Part shown: positions 3,593 to 32,490 of the stretch, one piece after another | Position numbering within the stretch: the stretch's first letter is position 1 | How the letters are laid out: every line of letters starts with the position of its first letter | IMG/VR virus record: IMGVR_UViG_3300042922_001168 | Span: 1 to 32,555 of that record | Strand: one strand, 5' to 3' | Origin: a virus | DNA: 32,555 nucleotides | Notes under the pieces: model-generated | What the model saw: only the letters and a program-made list of their open reading frames with translations | Databases searched by the model: none | What the model was told of the DNA's origin: nothing | Position numbers and translations under genes: made by a program

Positions 3593-5489
3593 AGAATTCT
3601 TCCATTACTTGAAGTATATATTCCCTGGCCATTTTAACACCGTTAGTCACATCTTCCTTATTACTTACCGGGCCATTGAAATTAAAGGTCAGTGATATTC
3701 CCGTTCCTGCTACTGAAGGCTGAGCACCTATCGCCTTGGCTGTCTGATTTAATAATGACAAACTCCGGGGATTTTTATACTTGATGGGGATAGCTGCCTC
3801 AAGTCCGGCTTCTCCGAATATTGAAGGCTGGTTTGTAAAACCTCCCTGGGCGAATGTCGGAATTGTGGGAATCTGCATGTCTATGCCTATTTTACTACCT
3901 ATAAAACCGGCTACTTTATTAAAGCCTCCCAGAAAATGGTTCACAAAACCTACACCTATGTTCAAATATCCCTTCAGGCTGTCAACGATATCGTTCCATA
4001 TCATACCAAAAATATTTTTAATATTTTCCCATGCCCCACTCCAGTTGCCGGAAAATACATTCATAACAAAATCAATCAGTTCGGTCAGGACATTGATCAT
4101 AGATGTAATTCTATCGGCTACGAACTGGATTATTGGCATTACGATCTCCATGGCATTTCCAAGGGTAAAGGCCAAATGGTCTGCCACAAGCTGTATCAGT
4201 GGAAGTAGCTTATTAAACAATGGCATAAGTGCACTTGCTATCTGATTTATTATATTCCCCAGGAATCCGATTATCTGTGCAATAACAGGCAAAATAGGTT
4301 TTAAAACACTGCTGATCATATTAAGTAAAGGCGGCAGCAAAGGCAAAATACTCTCAACCACCTGAGAAATTACCGGAGTCAAATCCTTCAAGAATCCTCC
4401 CACCATGGAAAAAACATCTGAGAATATCGGCCCCAGCTCGGTGGCTGTGGACATGAGAACAGGCAGCAGTTTCTGTACCAATGTAATAATTGCCGGCAAA
4501 ATCGGACTGTTTGCAAACTGTTTGAATATGTCCATTACAACCGGACCAATCTGCTGGAACATTCCCAGTATGTCCGGCAAAAACCCAGATACTTTTTCAG
4601 CCATCTTTGAAATACCATTCCCGATTTTTTCTATATCGATCTTATCAATCAGGGAGTTCAGCACCTGAAAGCCTCTGGTTAATGTCGGTAACGCCTTTAC
4701 AGCAATCTTTGCAATTGTTTCCTGGAACTTCGTATCAAATAACCTTTTCTGGTTTGCATAGGAGTTCTCCAATGTCTTTGCAAAGTCACCCTGAGCATCC
4801 TTTGACACTTCCATAAGGTATCCGTATCTCAATGCCACCTGGGATGCCTGATCCATTTGACTGTAAGACGTCTTGATACCTTTTGCCAGAGCAAAAGCCT
4901 CCATATTGGCCACAGACATATTGACACCAAGTTGTTTAAGTGGTTCTGTTTCACCACTGATTCCTGACCTGATCTTTTCAAATGAGTCATCCTGAGCCAG
5001 GTTATAGAATGATGCAAAATCACCGGATAGGCCGGATAAGTTTTCCGACATTGTAACCAGGGATTGTCCGGTTATACCACTGCTTTTCATCATGGCACCC
5101 AGGGTACCGGTATACTGTTTTGCCTGTAGTTCTGATAGGCCAAAGGCTTCCAGTGCAGTCTGGGACCATTTGTTGATCTGATTCGCATTATCTCTAAAGG
5201 TGGTATCCACAACATTCTGGACTTCCGTAAGACTTGAAGCAAGTTCAATACCTTGGGCACCCAATTCCCTTACCTTTTCAGTCACTCTGCTGACTGCATT
5301 ACTAAGTAGATTTCCTACAAATACACCTTTAATGATGTTACCGGCACTGGATAGACCGGAGGCAGATTTTGCTGCAGTTTTTGAAAGCTTTGTTGTTTCA
5401 CCCTGAGCCACTCTTAAGGCTTTTTGCAGTGAAGGATCCACCTTTCCTGCCAGTACAATTAATGCCTCTAATTCTTTACTTCCTGCCAC
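3561..5489 (-). CDS. Tail tape measure protein (P2 gpT-like)
   Basis: 642 aa from the GTG at 5489, which has GGAGG 8 nt upstream; the frame is open further back but that segment lies inside E'. The N-terminus (MAGSKELEALIVLAGKVDPSLQ) and the following ETTKLSKTAAK region are helical. Residues about 310 to 480 hold repeated hydrophobic helices rich in ILPLLPPLLN-type segments, as in tape measures. The C-terminus has FAQGGFTNQPSIFGEAGLEAAIP, a common tape-measure tail motif. The length would set a tail of roughly 100 nm. It follows the E/E' chaperone pair and overlaps E' by 14 nt, which supports the start chosen. Confidence 0.93.
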   Translation of the reverse strand: MAGSKELEALIVLAGKVDPSLQKALRVAQGETTKLSKTAAKSASGLSSAGNIIKGVFVGNLLSNAVSRVTEKVRELGAQGIELASSLTEVQNVVDTTFRDNANQINKWSQTALEAFGLSELQAKQYTGTLGAMMKSSGITGQSLVTMSENLSGLSGDFASFYNLAQDDSFEKIRSGISGETEPLKQLGVNMSVANMEAFALAKGIKTSYSQMDQASQVALRYGYLMEVSKDAQGDFAKTLENSYANQKRLFDTKFQETIAKIAVKALPTLTRGFQVLNSLIDKIDIEKIGNGISKMAEKVSGFLPDILGMFQQIGPVVMDIFKQFANSPILPAIITLVQKLLPVLMSTATELGPIFSDVFSMVGGFLKDLTPVISQVVESILPLLPPLLNMISSVLKPILPVIAQIIGFLGNIINQIASALMPLFNKLLPLIQLVADHLAFTLGNAMEIVMPIIQFVADRITSMINVLTELIDFVMNVFSGNWSGAWENIKNIFGMIWNDIVDSLKGYLNIGVGFVNHFLGGFNKVAGFIGSKIGIDMQIPTIPTFAQGGFTNQPSIFGEAGLEAAIPIKYKNPRSLSLLNQTAKAIGAQPSVAGTGISLTFNFNGPVSNKEDVTNGVKMAREYILQVMEEFYEDKGRVSFA

Positions 5490-17426: not shown

Positions 17427-18284
17427 TTATAACTTTCTGATTACATTAATAAGATCCTGCTTTGTCTTTCTGGTATAAATTCTTGTAGTGTTTATATTTG
17501 CGTGCCCGGCAAGATCAGCAATTTCATCAATGGTCAATCCTTCCTCGGCAAGTCTCAGACAATACAGATGTCTAAAATTATGGGCATGTGCCCTGGATAA
17601 CTTAATCTTACTCATTCCGGCATACAATTTAATAACGTTATGAACGGACTGCCGGCTCATCGGCGTATTTCTGAGTTCATTAAGGAATAAATAATCTGTC
17701 GGTTTATGCTTTCTTTCCTTAATATATAGATTTAGATATTCAACCAACCTTTCAGGTATAAGAATGTCCCTGTACTTCTCCCCTTTACCCAAAACAGTAA
17801 TCGCTTTTTTGTCCTTATCTGCAACTTTCAGGGTTATTAGCTCCGAAACTCTCAGACCTGTTAGATACAGGGTATAAAAAATGGCCAGTGCTCTGAAGTC
17901 TTTTTCTCTTTCAGCCAGCCTGACCAATCTTTCAAAATCATTTTGTGTAATTACTTCTTCCAGGTACTCTTGCCTTTGAACTTTAAGCACTTCAACCTCA
18001 AGACATATTTTCCTACCATAATCACTACAATTGTTTAGATATTCTATAAACTGCTTTATACTTATGAGCTTTCTGTTTATCGTCTTTGGCTTTAGGTTTC
18101 TGGATAAGAGATGTGATATATAATCATCTATATCCTGCTGCTCAATACAGTCAAAATTTTTAGATATAAATGAGAAAAACTGATTCAGATCAGAAATATA
18201 TGCATCAACTGTATTTGAACTTTTCTTTTTAAGCTTCAGCTCTATATAATTATTTAACAGATCAACCGCATTCAGTTTTCCCAC
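17427..18284 (-). CDS. Tyrosine recombinase (XerC/D-like)
   Basis: 285 aa with a GTG start at 18284; a stop lies three codons upstream and AAGGGG abuts the start, so translation may be inefficient. The N-terminal SAM-like core-binding domain covers residues 1 to about 105. The catalytic domain has Arg145 (TGLRVSEL), Lys167 (LGKGEKYRD), His235 and Arg238 (AHNFRHLYC), His261 (AGHANI) and the nucleophile Tyr270 (TTRIYTRK), so it is complete. It lies in the accessory zone, not by an attachment end, while a serine integrase occupies the prophage end. It may resolve multimers, act on another site, or be left from an older element. Confidence 0.9.
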   Translation of the reverse strand: MGKLNAVDLLNNYIELKLKKKSSNTVDAYISDLNQFFSFISKNFDCIEQQDIDDYISHLLSRNLKPKTINRKLISIKQFIEYLNNCSDYGRKICLEVEVLKVQRQEYLEEVITQNDFERLVRLAEREKDFRALAIFYTLYLTGLRVSELITLKVADKDKKAITVLGKGEKYRDILIPERLVEYLNLYIKERKHKPTDYLFLNELRNTPMSRQSVHNVIKLYAGMSKIKLSRAHAHNFRHLYCLRLAEEGLTIDEIADLAGHANINTTRIYTRKTKQDLINVIRKL

Positions 18285-22872: not shown

Positions 22873-22957
22873 TGGAATGTCCATTCCTTTTAACCGCACT
22901 ATTCAGTTATCAACGTACAAATTTCTTACTTCGCTATCCCGCTATTATGCGAACTAA
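22873..22957 (-). repeat. Cassette leader repeat, copy B
   Basis: Minus strand TTAGTTCGC, then GATAACTGAATAGTGC, then ACATTCCA before the promoter; homologous to the block at 21415 to 21510 but with a 10-nt shorter middle. Its first nucleotides contain the TAG stop of the PP-loop gene. Confidence 0.6.
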
Positions 22958-24267
22958 CTTATACTTATCCGATACCTTAAAATTACATCCTCAACTGCTT
23001 TTCTGCATTCATATTTACTTGTCTTATCACCATTGCCTTTTCTCGCAAGCAGCATATCTTTTGTAATCTTTTCAATGCTCTTCCCTGCCTTGAATTCGGA
23101 TATTATCACCTTTTCGGTATATACTTCCATATATTCATCCTCCCACTTTACTCCAATGTAGTCTAAAACCCGCCCCCATCCATATTTTTCTCCCGTAGTT
23201 TTATCAGTACAACAACGGTACATGTAAAATTCCCACTCTTTGTAGTTTCGTTCTCTAAGTCTGTCAAACCTGTGGGGCCTATTTTCAAGGTGTATACCAA
23301 ACCCGCACATACTACAGCCAGTTCTTTGTGCATCCGTTGTGTACAGTAGTCCGCTTTCAGTTCTTTCAATTCTTCCATATACATCGGGCAGAAGTCCCAA
23401 TTCGGGAATTTTAAGATCAATAGCCAATTGTAAAAGGTCTTGCCTAAGGAAAGGGGCAAATGGTGCGCTTCGAATTACTGTTTTGCCGTAATAGTTACAG
23501 CCATTTTCAATCAACGCCTCTTCCCTCTGTCCCCCCTCAGATGCCATCAAGCCTAAATACGGATAACTGTTGTGTTCTTTCGCCCAATCGTCACAAGGTT
23601 TTTCTTTAACCCAGTAACAGCATTTATTGGATACTGGAAAATCAGCCTCTAAATAATCAGTTCCATACTCCTCATTTGCCATTCCAGCGAATAGTTTTAA
23701 CCATTTTTTCGGTAACTGCATCCGGCTATTTTTAGCAAAATGGCCTTGTTTACCACATTCACCGGTTATAATTGCGTGCCTGACTGTTTTATTCTTTTCT
23801 GTTGGGTTTTGGATTGAATTTATTCTTCCAGCAAGCTTTTTGGATAGTACTGGGAATCCATCTTCATTGAGGACTTGAACTTTCGACTTTAACGGTCTTA
23901 TAGGCTCTAAATTTAGAATTTTATGTACATGTTGTATGCTCTTATCTTCTATGGATGAAACCGTAATACCGGGTGCATCTATTCCGATTTTCTTAAGAAA
24001 CATGTATAATGTTATGCTGTCGAGTCCTCCGACTGAGACATGATAGTTGTGTCCTCTTTTCTCCATTTCCATCATAAATTCGACTGCCCTTTGTTCTGCC
24101 CTCTTGATTTTTACTTCGTATGGCAATTGTTGCATTACCGTAAACTGTGCTTTTTTTCTTCTCTTGTCATTTTTCCAAGCCTCAAGCTCCTCATTGTCTT
24201 CCAAAAATTCCTTTACTTCAGGAATCGTAATTTCTTCAAGGTCAATTGCATCAAGCATTTTATTCAT
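22954..24267 (-). CDS. PAPS-reductase-family PP-loop ATPase (phage type)
   Basis: 437 aa; ATG with GGAGG 7 nt upstream. The PP-loop reads SVGGLDSITLYMFL (residues 78 to 91), where the usual S-G-G-K-D-S Lys is Leu. Further family features are NKCCYWVKEKPCDDWAK, MASEGGQREEAL (normally an R-x-x-E-S-x-x-R-type motif), and a C-terminal cysteine pair in TGCSMCGFGIHLENRP. Family members activate sulfate, or adenylate DNA/RNA as in DndC-like modification. Substrate here is unknown. It follows dnaB closely, so it may act on replicating DNA or nucleotides. The last codons (RISIS) may be an insertion artefact. Confidence 0.8.
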   Translation of the reverse strand: MNKMLDAIDLEEITIPEVKEFLEDNEELEAWKNDKRRKKAQFTVMQQLPYEVKIKRAEQRAVEFMMEMEKRGHNYHVSVGGLDSITLYMFLKKIGIDAPGITVSSIEDKSIQHVHKILNLEPIRPLKSKVQVLNEDGFPVLSKKLAGRINSIQNPTEKNKTVRHAIITGECGKQGHFAKNSRMQLPKKWLKLFAGMANEEYGTDYLEADFPVSNKCCYWVKEKPCDDWAKEHNSYPYLGLMASEGGQREEALIENGCNYYGKTVIRSAPFAPFLRQDLLQLAIDLKIPELGLLPDVYGRIERTESGLLYTTDAQRTGCSMCGFGIHLENRPHRFDRLRERNYKEWEFYMYRCCTDKTTGEKYGWGRVLDYIGVKWEDEYMEVYTEKVIISEFKAGKSIEKITKDMLLARKGNGDKTSKYECRKAVEDVILRYRISIS

Positions 24268-28311: not shown

Positions 28312-28467
28312 CTATTCCTTTGATTTACGTTCCAGTTCTGCGATAATTGCAGCACCCTTGATAGTGGCAAATATAATTTCCTGCTGCCTGGGAGTCATTT
28401 TGCTTAACAAATCTGCAAACGCTTCTGCATTACTCATAATAGTTTTATGCTCTATTTTTCCTGACAT
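28312..28467 (-). CDS. First gene of the early operon, small helical protein
   Basis: 51 aa: MSGKIEHKTIMSNAEAFADL, then MTPRQQEIIFATIKGAAIIA, ending ELERKSKE. The ATG has GAGGTGAT and lies about 30 nt after the predicted transcription start. It resembles short helical proteins opposite phage repressors; although it occupies a Cro position it has no obvious helix-turn-helix, so an antirepressor or anti-CI role is only a possibility. Confidence 0.6.
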   Translation of the reverse strand: MSGKIEHKTIMSNAEAFADLLSKMTPRQQEIIFATIKGAAIIAELERKSKE

Positions 28468-28504
28468 ATTATTATCACCTCACTTATTTTTGTCTTTTAA
28501 CAAC

Positions 28505-28533
28505 ATCATAATGTGTTTTAAGGACAATGTCAA
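28505..28533 (-). promoter_or_regulatory. Leftward early promoter (TTGACA-17-TATGAT)
   Basis: Minus strand TTGACA (28528 to 28533), 17-nt spacer, TATGAT (28505 to 28510): consensus sigma-A. It drives the early operon. The -10 overlaps an imperfect dyad TTAACAACA...TGTGTTTTAA, and GACAATGTC covers the -35, so repressor binding there would shut it off. Confidence 0.85.
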
Positions 28534-28545
28534 GTATGAATTTGT

Positions 28546-28557
28546 TGTTGACCAACA
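28546..28557. promoter_or_regulatory. Candidate repressor operator TGTTG-AC-CAACA
   Basis: Perfect 5-bp arms around AC, overlapping the -35 of the repressor promoter. A second short dyad, TCAC-GT-GTGA at 28561 to 28570, lies between -35 and -10. They are the best-formed dyads in the switch region and could allow autoregulation by the CI-type protein. Confidence 0.45.
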
Positions 28558-28576
28558 TTTTCACGTGTGATATTAT
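28548..28576 (+). promoter_or_regulatory. Repressor promoter (TTGACC-17-TATTAT)
   Basis: TTGACC (28548 to 28553), 17-nt spacer, TATTAT (28571 to 28576). The start would fall near 28583, immediately before the AGGAGG of the repressor gene, so the leader is only about 15 nt. It is divergent from the early promoter, a standard lysogeny switch. Confidence 0.78.
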
Positions 28577-28597
28577 TTTCGGTAGGAGGTGTATATT

Positions 28598-29083
28598 TTG
28601 GAAATATTCGAGAGAATCAAAATATTAAGAAATAAGGAATACTTAAACTTAACCCAAGAAGAGTTTTCAATGCGAATAAAAATTAGCAGGTCTAATCTCG
28701 CAAGTCTTGAAACCGGGAGAATAAATGTCACTGACAGACTTATCTCTGACATCTGTCGTGAATTTAGAGTTAACGAGGTGTGGCTCCGCACTGGCAGAGG
28801 GGACATATTCTTAATTACTCCAGATGATGATATTGAGCGTCTTGCAGTAAAATACAACCTGTCGGATCTTGCCAAACGTGTTGTTGGCGAATTTGTAAAG
28901 CTCGACAAAGATCAAAGCAATGCAGTTCTTGAGTGGCTCAAAAATGTTTTTACTGGTTCTGAAATCAGTGATAAGAGTACTGTTACATATGATAAGAAAG
29001 TACATCTTGCAGCTGCTCATAACGATAACCTAGAGGATCCTGAAGAACAGGAAAAAGTTAGACGTGATTTCGATAAGATATGA
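28598..29083 (+). CDS. CI-like repressor, XRE-family HTH
   Basis: 161 aa with TTG start at 28598 (AGGAGG 8 nt upstream; a GTG three codons earlier overlaps the site). The HTH is LTQEEFSMRIKISRSNLASL followed by ETGRINVTDRLISDICREF. RVNEVWLRTGRGDIF is a common extension in Gram-positive phage repressors. The C-terminal part is helical and acidic and lacks the self-cleaving Ser/Lys peptidase domain of LexA/CI. Loss of repression would therefore need another factor, such as the ImmA-like protein encoded next. Confidence 0.93.
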   Translation: MEIFERIKILRNKEYLNLTQEEFSMRIKISRSNLASLETGRINVTDRLISDICREFRVNEVWLRTGRGDIFLITPDDDIERLAVKYNLSDLAKRVVGEFVKLDKDQSNAVLEWLKNVFTGSEISDKSTVTYDKKVHLAAAHNDNLEDPEEQEKVRRDFDKI

Positions 29084-29099
29084 CGGATGGTGAATATAT

Positions 29100-29561
29100 T
29101 TGAGCTATGAAAAACTCCTCAATGAAGCATATAAAAATGATATTGTCGTAAAAGAACTAAAATTTGAATCATCCTCAAAGGGTTTAATTAAAAATAACAA
29201 GATTGCTATTCGCAATGATATTACTACTACAAATGAAAAAGCCTGCATCCTTGCCGAAGAAATTGGTCATTACTTTACAACTCACGGTGATATCCTTGAT
29301 CAAACTAAAACTGAAAATAGAAGGCAAGAAAAACGTGCTCGTAATTGGGCATATGAAAAGTTAGTACCGCTTGATAAGGTAATTGAAGCATATGATTCGG
29401 GAGTAAGAAACCGATTTGAATTAGCTTTATATCTCGATGTTATTGAAGAATTTCTGGAAGAAGCAATTATTCATTATAAAGAAAAATATGGCATATATGT
29501 CGTTATAGGTAATTACATAGTTTACTTTGATCCCCTTGGAATTTATAAAAAACTTGAGTAG
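29100..29561 (+). CDS. immA: ImmA/IrrE-family metallopeptidase-like protein
   Basis: 153 aa with TTG start at 29100. The motif is CILAEEIGHYFTTHGDILDQ. Canonical IrrE/ImmA has H-E-x-x-H, but here the first His is Glu, as in many phage ImmA-like proteins of this group; the second His and His-Gly-Asp remain. C-terminal DVIEEFLEEAIIHYKEKYG and YIVYFDPLGIY are typical. In ICEBs1 the metallopeptidase ImmA cleaves the ImmR repressor after DNA damage. A partner role for the adjacent repressor, which lacks its own peptidase, is probable, but catalysis is uncertain. Confidence 0.85.
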   Translation: MSYEKLLNEAYKNDIVVKELKFESSSKGLIKNNKIAIRNDITTTNEKACILAEEIGHYFTTHGDILDQTKTENRRQEKRARNWAYEKLVPLDKVIEAYDSGVRNRFELALYLDVIEEFLEEAIIHYKEKYGIYVVIGNYIVYFDPLGIYKKLE

Positions 29562-29563
29562 TC

Positions 29564-29593
29564 TTGCAAACAAAATCTTACAAATGATAGAAT
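29564..29593 (+). promoter_or_regulatory. Possible promoter of the HsdR_N-like nuclease gene
   Basis: TTGCAA (29564 to 29569), 18-nt spacer, TAGAAT (29588 to 29593), just after the ImmA-like stop. Moderate match. It would let the nuclease gene be expressed apart from the repressor. Confidence 0.4.
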
Positions 29594-29647
29594 ATACACA
29601 TAAATGTTGGTAATTCTATTATAAAATTGGAGAAAAGGGGTAATGCT

Positions 29648-30724
29648 ATGGATTTTATTGATCAAGTAAAACAATTTTCTACCCGGGTTCAAAAGATAAA
29701 GGATCAAATTCCTACTGAAGAAGCTACAAAAATGTCACTTATTGTACCGTTTTTTCAAATGCTTGGCTATGATGTATTTAATCCTGATGAATTTATGCCG
29801 GAATTTACAGCAGATGTAGGCATTAAGAAAGGTGAAAAAGTTGACTATGCTATAATGAAAGAAGGAAAACCGGTTATACTTATTGAATGTAAGTGGTGTG
29901 GCTCTCCTTTGGACAAGCATGGCTCACAGTTGTTCCGTTATTTTGGAACTACTACAGCTAAATTTGGCATTCTTACAAATGGAATAATATATAACTTTTA
30001 TACTGATCTGGATGAATCCAACAAAATGGATCTTACTCCTTTTCTTGAGCTAGACATGACGAATATAAAACCAAATGTTGTAGCAGAACTTAAGAAATTT
30101 AGCAGGGATTCCTTTGATGTTGAAAACATCTTCAGCACTGCATCTGAGCTAAAATACTCAAAATCTATAAAGCTTTTATTTGCTAACCAGTTAAAGGAAC
30201 CTTCTGACGACTTTGTCAAATACTTTTTATCAGAAATATACACCGGAGTAAAAACTCAAAATGTAGTTGACAAATACAGGCCTATTGTACGAAAGTCATT
30301 AAATGATTATATCAGTGAAATGATGAACGACAAAATTTCATCAGCATTAAAGGCCGATTCTGAAGTAGCTGCAGTTTCTGAATCAACAGTTGTTGCTCAG
30401 GAGGTATTGGATGAAAACGAAATTACAAAGATACATACAACTGATGAAGAAATAGAAAGTTATTATGCAGTTAAGAGCATATTAGTCGGAGTAGTAAAGG
30501 CCGAGGATGTAACCTACAAAGATAATGAGAGATATTTTGCTATCTTATATAAAGGTAACATTAGAAAAACAATATGCAGAATAAATTTAGACACAAAAAA
30601 GAAACAAATATTAATTCCAGATGAGAATAAAGACTTTACCAGATATTATATTGAGTCAGTTAATGACATATATTCATATAAAGATGATTTAATTAAAGTA
30701 GTTTCAAATTTCGCAGAAAATTAA
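29648..30724 (+). CDS. Stand-alone type I restriction endonuclease-like protein (HsdR_N, PD-(D/E)xK)
   Basis: 358 aa from the ATG at 29648 (AAGGGG 7 nt upstream; a TTG seven codons earlier is less likely). The HsdR_N nuclease core is visible: LIVPFFQMLGYDVFNPDEF, Asp66 in EKVDYAIM, and Glu80/Lys82 in PVILIECKW, then LFRYFGTTTAKFGILTNG. It lacks helicase motifs, and no hsdM or hsdS is nearby. The second half is strand-rich (VGVVKAEDVTYKDNERYFAI). Such proteins sit between repressor and integrase in many prophages; a superinfection-defence role is likely but unproven. A terminator follows. Confidence 0.82.
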   Translation: MDFIDQVKQFSTRVQKIKDQIPTEEATKMSLIVPFFQMLGYDVFNPDEFMPEFTADVGIKKGEKVDYAIMKEGKPVILIECKWCGSPLDKHGSQLFRYFGTTTAKFGILTNGIIYNFYTDLDESNKMDLTPFLELDMTNIKPNVVAELKKFSRDSFDVENIFSTASELKYSKSIKLLFANQLKEPSDDFVKYFLSEIYTGVKTQNVVDKYRPIVRKSLNDYISEMMNDKISSALKADSEVAAVSESTVVAQEVLDENEITKIHTTDEEIESYYAVKSILVGVVKAEDVTYKDNERYFAILYKGNIRKTICRINLDTKKKQILIPDENKDFTRYYIESVNDIYSYKDDLIKVVSNFAEN

Positions 30725-30738
30725 AAAGCTTATCTACT

Positions 30739-30773
30739 AGAGGGTGACTCTCCTCATAAGAGAATCACTCTTT
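30739..30773 (+). terminator. Terminator between the nuclease and integrase genes
   Basis: AGAGGGTGACTCTC pairs with GAGAATCACTCTTT (13 of 14 positions, two G-U, one mismatch) around a 7-nt loop; TTTATTTAT lies at and beyond its end. It should isolate the integrase gene from lysogenic transcription. The integrase leader has only a TATAAT (30777 to 30782) without a matching -35. Confidence 0.75.
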
Positions 30774-30799
30774 ATTTATAATTATTGAGGTGAAAAAAC

Positions 30800-32338
30800 G
30801 TGACAGTTGATATTTATTTAAGAAAATCCCGCGCAGATGAAGAACTTGAAAAAACTCTAGGCCAGGGTGAAACCCTTGCTCGACACCGTAAGGTTTTATT
30901 ACGTCTGGCCAAGGAAGAAGGATATACTATTCAAAAAATACACGAAGAATTGGTCTCGGGAGAAGAACTGTTTTTTCGTCCTGCAATGCTTGAAGTACTA
31001 AAAGATGTTGAGGCAGGATTATGTCAAGGTGTACTGGTTATGGATATTCAGCGTCTCGGCAGAGGCGATATGGAGGAGCAAGGCATCATTCTGAAGACCT
31101 TTAAAAAGTCAAATGCTAAAATCATCACTCCCAAGAAAGTATATGACCTGAATGATGAATTTGATGAAGAATACAGCGAATTTGAAGCATTCATGAGCCG
31201 TAAAGAATATAAGATGATTAATAAACGACTCCAGGGTGGAAGAGTGGAGTCCGTTATGGAAGGTAACTATATTGCCACAGTACCCCCATATGGTTATGAT
31301 TTGATTCAAGTGGATAAGAAAACCAGAACCTTAAAGCCAAATCTCGAACAGGCTAAAGTTGTGCAAATGATTTATGACTGGTATGTTAATCAAAATATGG
31401 GCTGCCGAAAAATAGGTAATGAGCTTGATAGACTTGGTATAAAATCATATACTGGAAAGAATTGGGATAAGTCCTCTATTACCTCTTATCTAAAGAATCC
31501 GGTGTACATAGGTAAAATAGTTTGGAAGAAAAAATGTATTCGCAAGAGCAAAACTCCTGGGAAAAAAAGAGATGCTTTTACGCGTCCGCAGGAAGAATGG
31601 ATTATCAGTGAAGGAAAGCATCCAGCAATTATTGAAGAGTCCTTGTATAACAAGGCGCAGGAGATCCTTGCCGGTAAGTACCATGTTCCTTATCAATTAG
31701 AAAACGGAGTAACCAATCCCCTTGCAGGTTTGTTAATATGTGATAAATGCGCGGCTAAAATGGTTAAACGTCCGGTTGGAAGTAAACCACCGAGAATTAT
31801 GTGTCCTAAAAATTGCGGTCAGAAAAGTAACTTTTTTAATAGCGTTGAAGAACTGGTCCTAAAGGAGCTAGAGGAGTACTATAATAATCTACTCGTTGAC
31901 TCTTCTAAAAAGAAAACCAGTAATTCAGCTAATGTAGAATTATCTTTGCTTGAAAAGAATATTATCAACCTGGAGAATGAATGTAAAACCCTTGACCAGC
32001 AGCGAATTAAAACTTATGATCTGCTTGAGCAAGGTATTTATGATGTTGCAACTTTTACAGAGAGATCAAACTCCATCCAGGAAAGACTTAATTCGTTATA
32101 TTTGTCAATTGAGGCCACTAAAAAGCAGTTACAAAATATAAAAGCATCCAATGTCCACAGCACTGAATATATCGCAATGCTGAGAAGTGTATTGGACGCT
32201 TATTACAAAATCGAATCACCAAAAGATAAAAATCTACTTCTTAAAACTGTGCTGGACAAGGTTGGATACAACAAAGAGCCTGATGCCAAGGTAGATGAAT
32301 TCAAAATAAAGATATACCCTAAAATATCTTCATTCTGA
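30800..32338 (+). CDS. Large serine recombinase (prophage integrase)
   Basis: 512 aa with GTG start (GAGGTG upstream). The catalytic domain begins MTVDIYLRKSRADEE with Ser10 in YLRKS and has MDIQRLGRGDMEEQGIIL, the R-x-x-R/G motif. A recombinase domain follows (PPYGYDLIQVDKKTRTLKPN, NQNMGCRKIGNELDRLGIKS, then YLKNPVYIGKIVWKKK). The zinc ribbon has CDKCAAKM and CPKNCG, then a coiled coil (SLLEKNIINLENECKTLDQQ). It integrates and, with a directionality factor, excises the element. It converges on a sigK fragment 12 nt downstream, the arrangement of spoIVCA and spoIVCB in B. subtilis. Confidence 0.96.
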   Translation: MTVDIYLRKSRADEELEKTLGQGETLARHRKVLLRLAKEEGYTIQKIHEELVSGEELFFRPAMLEVLKDVEAGLCQGVLVMDIQRLGRGDMEEQGIILKTFKKSNAKIITPKKVYDLNDEFDEEYSEFEAFMSRKEYKMINKRLQGGRVESVMEGNYIATVPPYGYDLIQVDKKTRTLKPNLEQAKVVQMIYDWYVNQNMGCRKIGNELDRLGIKSYTGKNWDKSSITSYLKNPVYIGKIVWKKKCIRKSKTPGKKRDAFTRPQEEWIISEGKHPAIIEESLYNKAQEILAGKYHVPYQLENGVTNPLAGLLICDKCAAKMVKRPVGSKPPRIMCPKNCGQKSNFFNSVEELVLKELEEYYNNLLVDSSKKKTSNSANVELSLLEKNIINLENECKTLDQQRIKTYDLLEQGIYDVATFTERSNSIQERLNSLYLSIEATKKQLQNIKASNVHSTEYIAMLRSVLDAYYKIESPKDKNLLLKTVLDKVGYNKEPDAKVDEFKIKIYPKISSF

Positions 32339-32340
32339 AT

Positions 32341-32357
32341 CCCTTTGTTTTAAAGGG
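32341..32357 (+). terminator. Weak hairpin after the integrase gene
   Basis: CCCTTT and AAAGGG form a 6-bp stem (extended by GAA/TTC with a bulge) around GTTTT. There is no long T-run, so it may be weak or act both ways between the convergent integrase and sigK fragment. Confidence 0.35.
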
Positions 32358-32490
32358 TTCCAATCAATATACAACATGTAGATGGCATCTCATTGCCTTC
32401 TTTATCAATCCCAATAGGATCCTGCAATGATACCTCATTCTGAATTTTTTTGGACGCTCTGATTTGCATTAGAATTTCATTTGCTATCCT
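32350..32490 (-). pseudogene. sigK: sigK fragment at the prophage right junction (spoIVCB-like)
   Basis: Minus-strand frame: [12 protein letters not shown] then [16 protein letters not shown] (32484 to 32389), 34 codons in all. B. subtilis SigK has NEILMHLRALKK and DVSLHDPIGQDKEGNE; SigE reads differently here (DEPLN...), so SigK is the better match. Similarity ends at GNE; the continuation [12 protein letters not shown] then stop is not sigma factor (SigK goes on ISLIDVL). Codons AAT GAG hold AATGA. Upstream of about 32490 the frame is damaged and reaches a TAA at 32513, so this is a partial copy, not an intact 5' half of the gene. Confidence 0.75.

Follow-up and report, generated by a model that had tools for sequence, protein, structure and literature searches.

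A predicted stand-alone HsdR_N-type nuclease carried as single-gene cargo in the lysogeny arm of a temperate phage

Introduction

Among the PD-(D/E)xK nucleases, the described proteins closest to the one considered here are HsdR, to which a QxxxY motif also belongs, DrdV, which carries its own methylase, and SduA of Shedu, a stand-alone nuclease encoded by a single gene. A motor is also lacking from fusions of HsdR_N to HsdM, and that of Zymomonas represents another architecture (PMC8432527). The lysogeny module of TP-J34 encodes a product of another sort, the lipoprotein Ltp, which is transcribed in the prophage and described as a superinfection exclusion protein that blocks DNA injection at the cell surface (PMC3952083).

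The protein described here is a further member of PHROG 4225, a family that is catalogued, widespread and little studied; the literature searched, which left aside subscription papers and preprints, held no functional study of it. The nearest mention is of a Campylobacter jejuni HsdR N-terminal protein, a possible member of PHROG 4225, which is listed as a difference between a phage-sensitive and a phage-resistant strain, with an unclear role (PMC8713573). In other papers, the gene called ‘type IV’ is McrB (PMC8637289; PMC4652380), DUF450 appears only as a Campylobacter gene-table entry (PMC7785942; PMC3928612), and HSDR_N is used as a restriction-modification marker or occurs as a neighbour domain (PMC7251935; PMC4619093). 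We describe below a gene of this family in the lysogeny arm of a temperate phage, its predicted architecture, its behaviour as cargo, its spread beyond phages, and the role that it may have.

The lysogeny arm and its nuclease gene

The window, by which we mean the whole stretch of 32,555 bases analysed, is a virus record with its head, tail and replication genes on the minus strand and genes for a repressor, ImmA, the nuclease and a serine recombinase on the plus strand. The rightward lysogeny arm begins with a CI-like repressor gene encoding a helix-turn-helix protein (28589-29083, +; Pfam HTH_19 5.2e-08, HTH_3 5.3e-08, and a PHROG transcriptional regulator), followed by one for an ImmA/IrrE-type metalloprotease (29100-29561, +; Peptidase_M78 5.1e-08, phrog_87 metallo-protease 6.6e-38). 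A gap of 86 nt (29562-29647, +), which holds the Shine-Dalgarno-like GGAGAAAAGGGG at 29629-29640, leads to the solitary nuclease gene (29648-30724, +), whose ATG lies at 29648, whose stop codon ends at 30724, and which encodes 358 amino acids. A large serine recombinase, or integrase, closes the slot (30800-32338, +; Pfam Recombinase 9.9e-26, Resolvase 7.2e-15, phrog_95 integrase 1.2e-98). An earlier reading of this DNA, made from sequence only, had placed the gene in a lysogeny arm, and this is borne out by the adjoining repressor-ImmA genes and the downstream integrase on the same strand; its reading-frame coordinates and its residues D66, E80 and K82 were exact. It had also taken the gene to be insulated by a terminator. 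A hairpin does fold 3′ of the nuclease (30738-30774, +; -15.9 kcal/mol, z -2.2) and may, on modest support, end transcription ahead of the integrase, but its U-tract is weak and a terminator scan did not call it. Promoter-like sites in 28400-30900 number 16 against 11.8 ± 3.4 in shuffled sequence, little above chance.

Beside the serine recombinase, positions 32333-32487 (-) match part of a sigma-factor-like ORF in a related phage contig (L234:6560-7021, -), the homology being lost after about 32487. This suggests that the phage integrated into a sigma-factor-like gene, which we take to be SigK-like and to be comparable with the skin element. The window also encodes a second recombinase (17427-18284, -; phrog_1 integrase family, 2e-44) and a phosphoadenosine phosphosulfate reductase-like moron gene (22954-24267, -; phrog_424, 4.8e-19), and L234 carries a 270-aa ORF (L234:1194-2006, -) in which near-identical NTGDQSAAT/NTGYKSAAT repeats are arrayed.

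Profile searches identify the nuclease along its whole length as a member of PHROG 4225 (‘endonuclease’), residues 1-356 aligning to positions 2-355 of the 357 in the profile (1.1e-135). Pfam HSDR_N (PF04313) is matched at 56.4 bits against a gathering cut-off of 25.1 (4.8e-15), which backs the HsdR_N-type domain proposed earlier, and HSDR_N_2 also scores above cut-off (4.9e-08); nothing in Pfam does so on the C-terminal part. NCBIfam gave no match above cut-off, and no model of PADLOC-DB 2023 matched at E <= 1, those for Shedu and type IV systems included, the type IV models leaving undescribed subfamilies uncovered. Pfam, NCBIfam and PHROGs place no helicase family in the 358 residues, so the HsdR motor is absent from the protein. 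Nor were HsdM, HsdS, a methylase or a restriction helicase found among 24 window proteins scanned (4 + 10 + 10, from 50 ORFs of at least 90 aa, many of them overlapping and non-genic), several of which matched no family at all and whose sole helicase is DnaB-like. The claim that helicase, methylase and specificity genes are missing thus holds for the proteins scanned in a record that is viral only. The word ‘orphan’ fits as far as Hsd partners go, but not as regards family, the protein being a full-length PHROG 4225 member with many relatives.

Catalytic residues and predicted structure

D66, E80 and K82 are unchanged in 54 of 54 aligned sequences and, together with E24, Q94 and Y98, invariant in all 181 of a larger alignment, so that chance does not account for the catalytic motif. 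That alignment, used also for the tree, comprises the window protein and 180 relatives: 46 of 230 loci were removed at >= 90% identity, and four of the 184 non-redundant relatives left were omitted as shorter than 320 aa. Q94 and Y98 form a RecB-type QxxxY, and the full set of E, D, ExK and QxxxY is what we take to mark the RecB/HsdR kind of PD-(D/E)xK nuclease. The D, ExK and QxxxY that define this branch are thus present on a restriction-endonuclease-like fold, with cleavage itself a prediction, and the protein is predicted to be a stand-alone RecB/HsdR_N-type PD-(D/E)xK nuclease. Three close pairs of relatives show purifying selection (dN/dS 0.010, 0.054 and 0.029); between the window gene and that of phage locus L004, dS is saturated. 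Mean identity between sequences is 63% in the nuclease half, 40% in the middle and 41% in the C-terminal domain, where E268 is kept in 180 and R311 in 179 of the 181 sequences.

An AlphaFold2 model built on 49 sequences has a mean pLDDT of 90.3 and a pTM of 0.60, the latter making the relative placement of domains uncertain. Its N-terminal PD-(D/E)xK domain (residues 1-136; 29648-30055, +) holds all six invariant residues and is followed by a helical middle segment assigned by DSSP (residues 141-241; 30068-30370, +), a low-confidence stretch (residues 241-260) and a C-terminal alpha/beta domain of some 96 residues (262-357; 30431-30718, +), a candidate for recognition or sensing, with five strands between two helices. 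The sequence-only reading had described a strand-rich second half that might be a sensor. Such a description suits residues 262-357, mixed alpha/beta with five strands, but not the helical residues 141-245, and a sensor role for the modelled C-terminal domain may be entertained as a guess.

By VIA-align, the nuclease half is most like DrdV (Z 12.0, 137 residues, rmsd 3.1), then the Vibrio HsdR 3h1t (Z 11.4, 126 residues, rmsd 3.8) and EcoR124I 2w00 (Z 8.2), with lower scores for SduA (Z 6.2), NucC (Z 5.8) and LHK-Exo (Z 5.0), those of SduA and NucC falling in the range that VIA-align rates as common arrangements. A Foldseek search of the PDB with the whole model returned nothing at E <= 0.001 (the top hits were DrdV at 3.2e-03 and 3h1t at 3.1e-02), and phmmer and profile searches of solved-structure sequences gave chance matches only; it is therefore VIA-align and the Pfam match that tie the protein to HsdR structures. 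Modelled alone, the C-terminal domain reaches a pLDDT of 92.8. Its VIA matches are mixed and unrelated, with a best Z of 6.5 and no clear solved relative, and Foldseek found nothing at E <= 0.001 in the PDB or among viral models. A likeness to the DNA-binding domain of phage T4 MotA (Z 6.4, 84 residues) was considered and set aside, since actin-capping proteins (Z 6.5) and frataxin/CyaY (Z 5.5) score alike; we take all these resemblances as a common arrangement.

A cargo slot between repressor and integrase

Comparison with related phages shows the nuclease gene present, absent or replaced between repressor and integrase. The phage contig L234 encodes an integrase with 86% amino acid identity to that of the window and shares an ImmA DNA stretch that is 76% identical, its repressor differing except in the last part. 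It lacks the nuclease: only 57 nt separate the end of ImmA at 4937 from the start of the integrase ORF at 4995, against 1,238 nt in the window. Phage locus L004 has, by blastn, only the nuclease ORF in common with the window (75.5% over 29648-30705); its repressor is distantly related, its serine recombinase is a different one, and no ImmA is seen between repressor and nuclease. Replacement is seen in two related phage groups. Homology of the Streptococcus phages IPP25 and IPP27 to L072 ends at L072:3965 and returns at 5033, and a putative lipoprotein, so annotated, takes the place of the nuclease ORF (L072:3974-5044). Enterococcus phage EG-TP1 and MT836113, an unverified scaffold with no host named, are 93.3% alike in their CI/ImmA DNA and 88.6% alike in that of the integrase, and a DUF5067 protein with a lipobox-like start follows ImmA in MT836113 where EG-TP1 has the nuclease. 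In related streptococcal phages, the stretch from repressor to integrase also encodes small membrane-type or zinc-ribbon proteins, among others.

On these sequence comparisons the nuclease gene is a one-gene cargo, or ‘moron’, of a temperate-phage arm arranged as repressor, ImmA, slot and integrase. That prophages keep superinfection defences in this slot had been proposed from the sequence. A lysogeny-arm cargo slot it is, but the defence part holds by analogy only, because the lipoproteins swapped in have no assigned function (one is DUF5067); by that analogy, the slot shows the pattern of defence cargo.

The Klebsiella loci L281-L283, relatives of KpF5, were considered as a further swap and rejected as not clean: the nuclease is absent, but homology breaks from L068:3950 to about 6300 and the repressor stretch is replaced as well. 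In the related Streptococcus phage SF39, the repressor is followed immediately by a protein of 364 aa (L237:2377-3471) that carries the annotation ‘restriction endonuclease domain protein’ and matches phrog_10226; SF39 is absent from the tblastn matches of the nuclease.

Spread and genomic setting of the family

Relatives of the nuclease were found in 18 of 50,697 phage records, in phages whose hosts belong to Bacillota, Actinomycetota, Bacteroidota, Fusobacteriota and Pseudomonadota (phyla assigned from the host names), and in 62 of 72,556 records of a plasmid collection, some of which resemble misfiled chromosomes and 23 of which cover at least 80% of the query. At least 589 relatives occur in a genome collection, and 186 of 5,426 complete E. 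coli genomes carry one of a close set of alleles. This E. coli relative, WP_000061477.1, matches PHROG 4225 at 3e-130; in the three genomes opened out of the 186 it stands alone, with a HicAB pair on one side and aldB on the other.

A search for a conserved second-half domain, which the sequence-only reading had proposed, did find one, tied within the samples taken to the nuclease family. The C-terminal domain occurs in 8 of 245 genomes sampled from the class of one Lacrimispora genome and in 21 of 198 from that of one Pedobacter genome (one match being weak), both counts including the centre genome, which was picked for carrying the gene; the class labels Clostridia and Bacteroidia are those we infer for the two samples (L075 and L118). 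Of the eight Clostridia matches, one is a remnant and the other seven fall in frames of 360-384 aa. Among 22 match rows from Bacteroidia, 17 lie in frames of 351-403 aa, one with a stop, and the other five in frames of 266, 239, 108 and 77 aa and, at a weak 5.5e-4, in one of 2,040 aa. The idea that the domain serves as a module of other effectors was dropped, no other convincing architecture having appeared in the 443 sampled genomes.

Some relatives are broken or partial. A genome-borne remnant (L255:1150-1659) has mostly lost its nuclease domain and has a stop in the matched frame. In L023:2343-5370 the relative is split: some 1.65 kb separate residues 1-250 from residues 272-342, and the space between them contains a 516-aa ORF on the opposite strand, probably an insertion. 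Relatives on Borrelia/Borreliella plasmids, among those listed, match over the first ~200-240 residues only and not over the C-terminal domain.

Among 97 non-redundant viral loci, which are the best matches to the window and so biased toward its relatives, 63 of 93 testable ones have a gene for a repressor-type HTH protein or ImmA upstream of the nuclease on its strand, 47 of 79 have an integrase gene (20 serine, 27 tyrosine) no more than 4 kb downstream, and 41 of 76 have both; the labels come from profiles seeded inside the set, with weak members missed and no formal null. Nine of the 18 phage records were opened and seven of these name the neighbours, six with the order repressor(-protease), nuclease, integrase, the nuclease being on the strand of the repressor genes: phages of Acetoanaerobium, Enterococcus, Streptococcus, Fusobacterium, Corynebacterium and Klebsiella. 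The distance from nuclease to integrase in loci L064, L065, L067, L068, L072 and L074 is about 0.1 to 4.5 kb, the two genes being directly adjacent or spaced. In the seventh, Porphyromonas phage 019b (L066:4244-6071), the nuclease gene lies outside the lysogeny module, between portal and tail genes and beside HicAB.

Neither repressor nor integrase is found at 49 of 76 non-redundant genome loci, 39 of the 49 having sufficient flank on both sides and 10 being short of it on one, so a prophage setting is not essential. In a quick tree of the 181 sequences, with 133 labelled leaves and no shuffle null, the setting switches between lysogeny-linked and not at least 15 times. From its sequence contexts, the gene is a mobile single-gene module at home both in lysogeny modules and outside them. 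Among 134 neighbour proteins (part of 178, from 42 of the 49 genome loci with neither repressor nor integrase), no Pfam family is present in more than four, and this want of a conserved partner argues that one gene suffices. HicAB, which adjoins the gene in E. coli and Porphyromonas, does not qualify as a regular partner: searches seeded with two HicA and two HicB proteins matched at only 6 of 233 loci (ORFs of at least 50 aa). As to a link with defence islands, 154 PADLOC families match among the 134 neighbours (1e-5), an uncontrolled count that permits no conclusion, one protein being able to match many models; the 25 families listed, each in one or two proteins, include ZacC, GajB-like, type IV, AriA and DRT-type.

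What the nuclease may do

The reading we favour, with rather more confidence than doubt, is that the lysogen makes this nuclease from a single gene and that the enzyme cuts DNA injected by superinfecting phages, its expression, cleavage, dimerisation, trigger and protective effect being inferred. With the prophage dormant, the gene would be transcribed rightward along with the repressor genes, and its product would cut superinfecting phage DNA, or other incoming DNA, in the cytoplasm. The helical middle probably keeps the nuclease dimeric, and the C-terminal domain, through contact with some feature of the DNA or with a product of the phage, probably sets what is cut or when; with recognition of this kind, no partner methylase would be needed to keep the host chromosome intact. 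Acting after injection, the cytoplasmic nuclease would complement the surface lipoproteins.

A broader proposition, which we put forward tentatively, is that the proteins of PHROG 4225 make up a so far unrecognised anti-phage system of one gene, exchanged between the lysogeny modules of prophages and chromosomes across bacterial phyla, and that the C-terminal alpha/beta domain is a new recognition module by which a lone HsdR-type nuclease, with neither methylase nor motor, distinguishes foreign DNA from its own. If true, a common gene named ‘type I restriction endonuclease’ would be a complete defence system and not a loose fragment of one, and would show how a host can safely carry a restriction nuclease on its own. 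PADLOC-DB 2023 misses the family, while the HSDR_N domain is counted as a restriction-modification marker in domain surveys (PMC7251935), so that the gene may be counted there, unnamed. The E. coli relative makes the question directly testable in laboratory strains.

How the nuclease would be restrained can be modelled in two ways. The first, which we regard as doubtful though the better of the two, is type IV-like restriction, in which only modified phage DNA (methylated, hydroxymethylated, glucosylated or phosphorothioated) is cut and the C-terminal domain reads the mark. A solitary nuclease must somehow spare host DNA, and the scanned window proteins include no methylase, the relatives have no conserved partner, and the C-terminal domain stays with the nuclease family in the samples taken; against this, no likeness of the domain to known modification-reading domains was found, whether by structure or by Pfam above cut-off, and the hosts of relatives span many phyla. 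Slightly less probable is a triggered abortive nuclease, idle until a phage product or DNA structure engages the C-terminal domain, whereupon all DNA is degraded and the infected lysogen dies. The separate C-terminal domain beyond the low-confidence stretch would suit such a switch, as would the weak likeness of the nuclease half to the defence nucleases SduA and NucC, but those scores lie in the common range and no PADLOC model matched.

A role in the phage life cycle (induction, excision or recombination) instead of defence seems improbable to us. RecB-type QxxxY motifs are common to recombination nucleases, and the gene's location between repressor and integrase and the weak likeness to the phage-type exonuclease LHK-Exo point the same way. 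Yet the gene is dispensable, being absent from relatives with the same integrase and ImmA, is replaced by lipoproteins in others, and occurs upstream of serine and tyrosine integrases alike and on chromosomes with neither; its dispensability and its presence with both integrase types disfavour such a role. That the protein is a spare HsdR nuclease subunit, supplied in trans to a type I system of the host, as its HSDR_N domain and a viral-only record that leaves room for host HsdM/HsdS might allow, is scarcely credible given its missing helicase part, its own conserved middle and C-terminal domains, and its place as a lone gene between metabolic genes and HicAB in the three E. coli genomes.

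Comparison with known systems

Set beside described systems, the nuclease that we favour as a lysogen-made defence shares features with several. To SduA it bears a weak fold match, in the range of common arrangements, with no PADLOC match at the threshold used. DrdV-type HsdR nuclease-methylase fusions provide the best structural match to its nuclease half, but, unlike them, it has no methylase. With the N-terminal domain of HsdR (3h1t, 2w00) it shares the nuclease fold and the D and ExK motif; unlike HsdR, it comes with no helicase motor and with no HsdM or HsdS partner seen, and has middle and C-terminal domains of its own. Like Ltp of TP-J34 it is a cargo gene of a lysogeny module, and predicted lipoproteins replace it in two related phage groups, but, unlike Ltp, it is a predicted cytoplasmic nuclease that would act after injection. 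The PHROG 4225 proteins, of about 360 aa and named ‘type I restriction endonuclease’ in NCBI records, match it over the full length and have the same anatomy.
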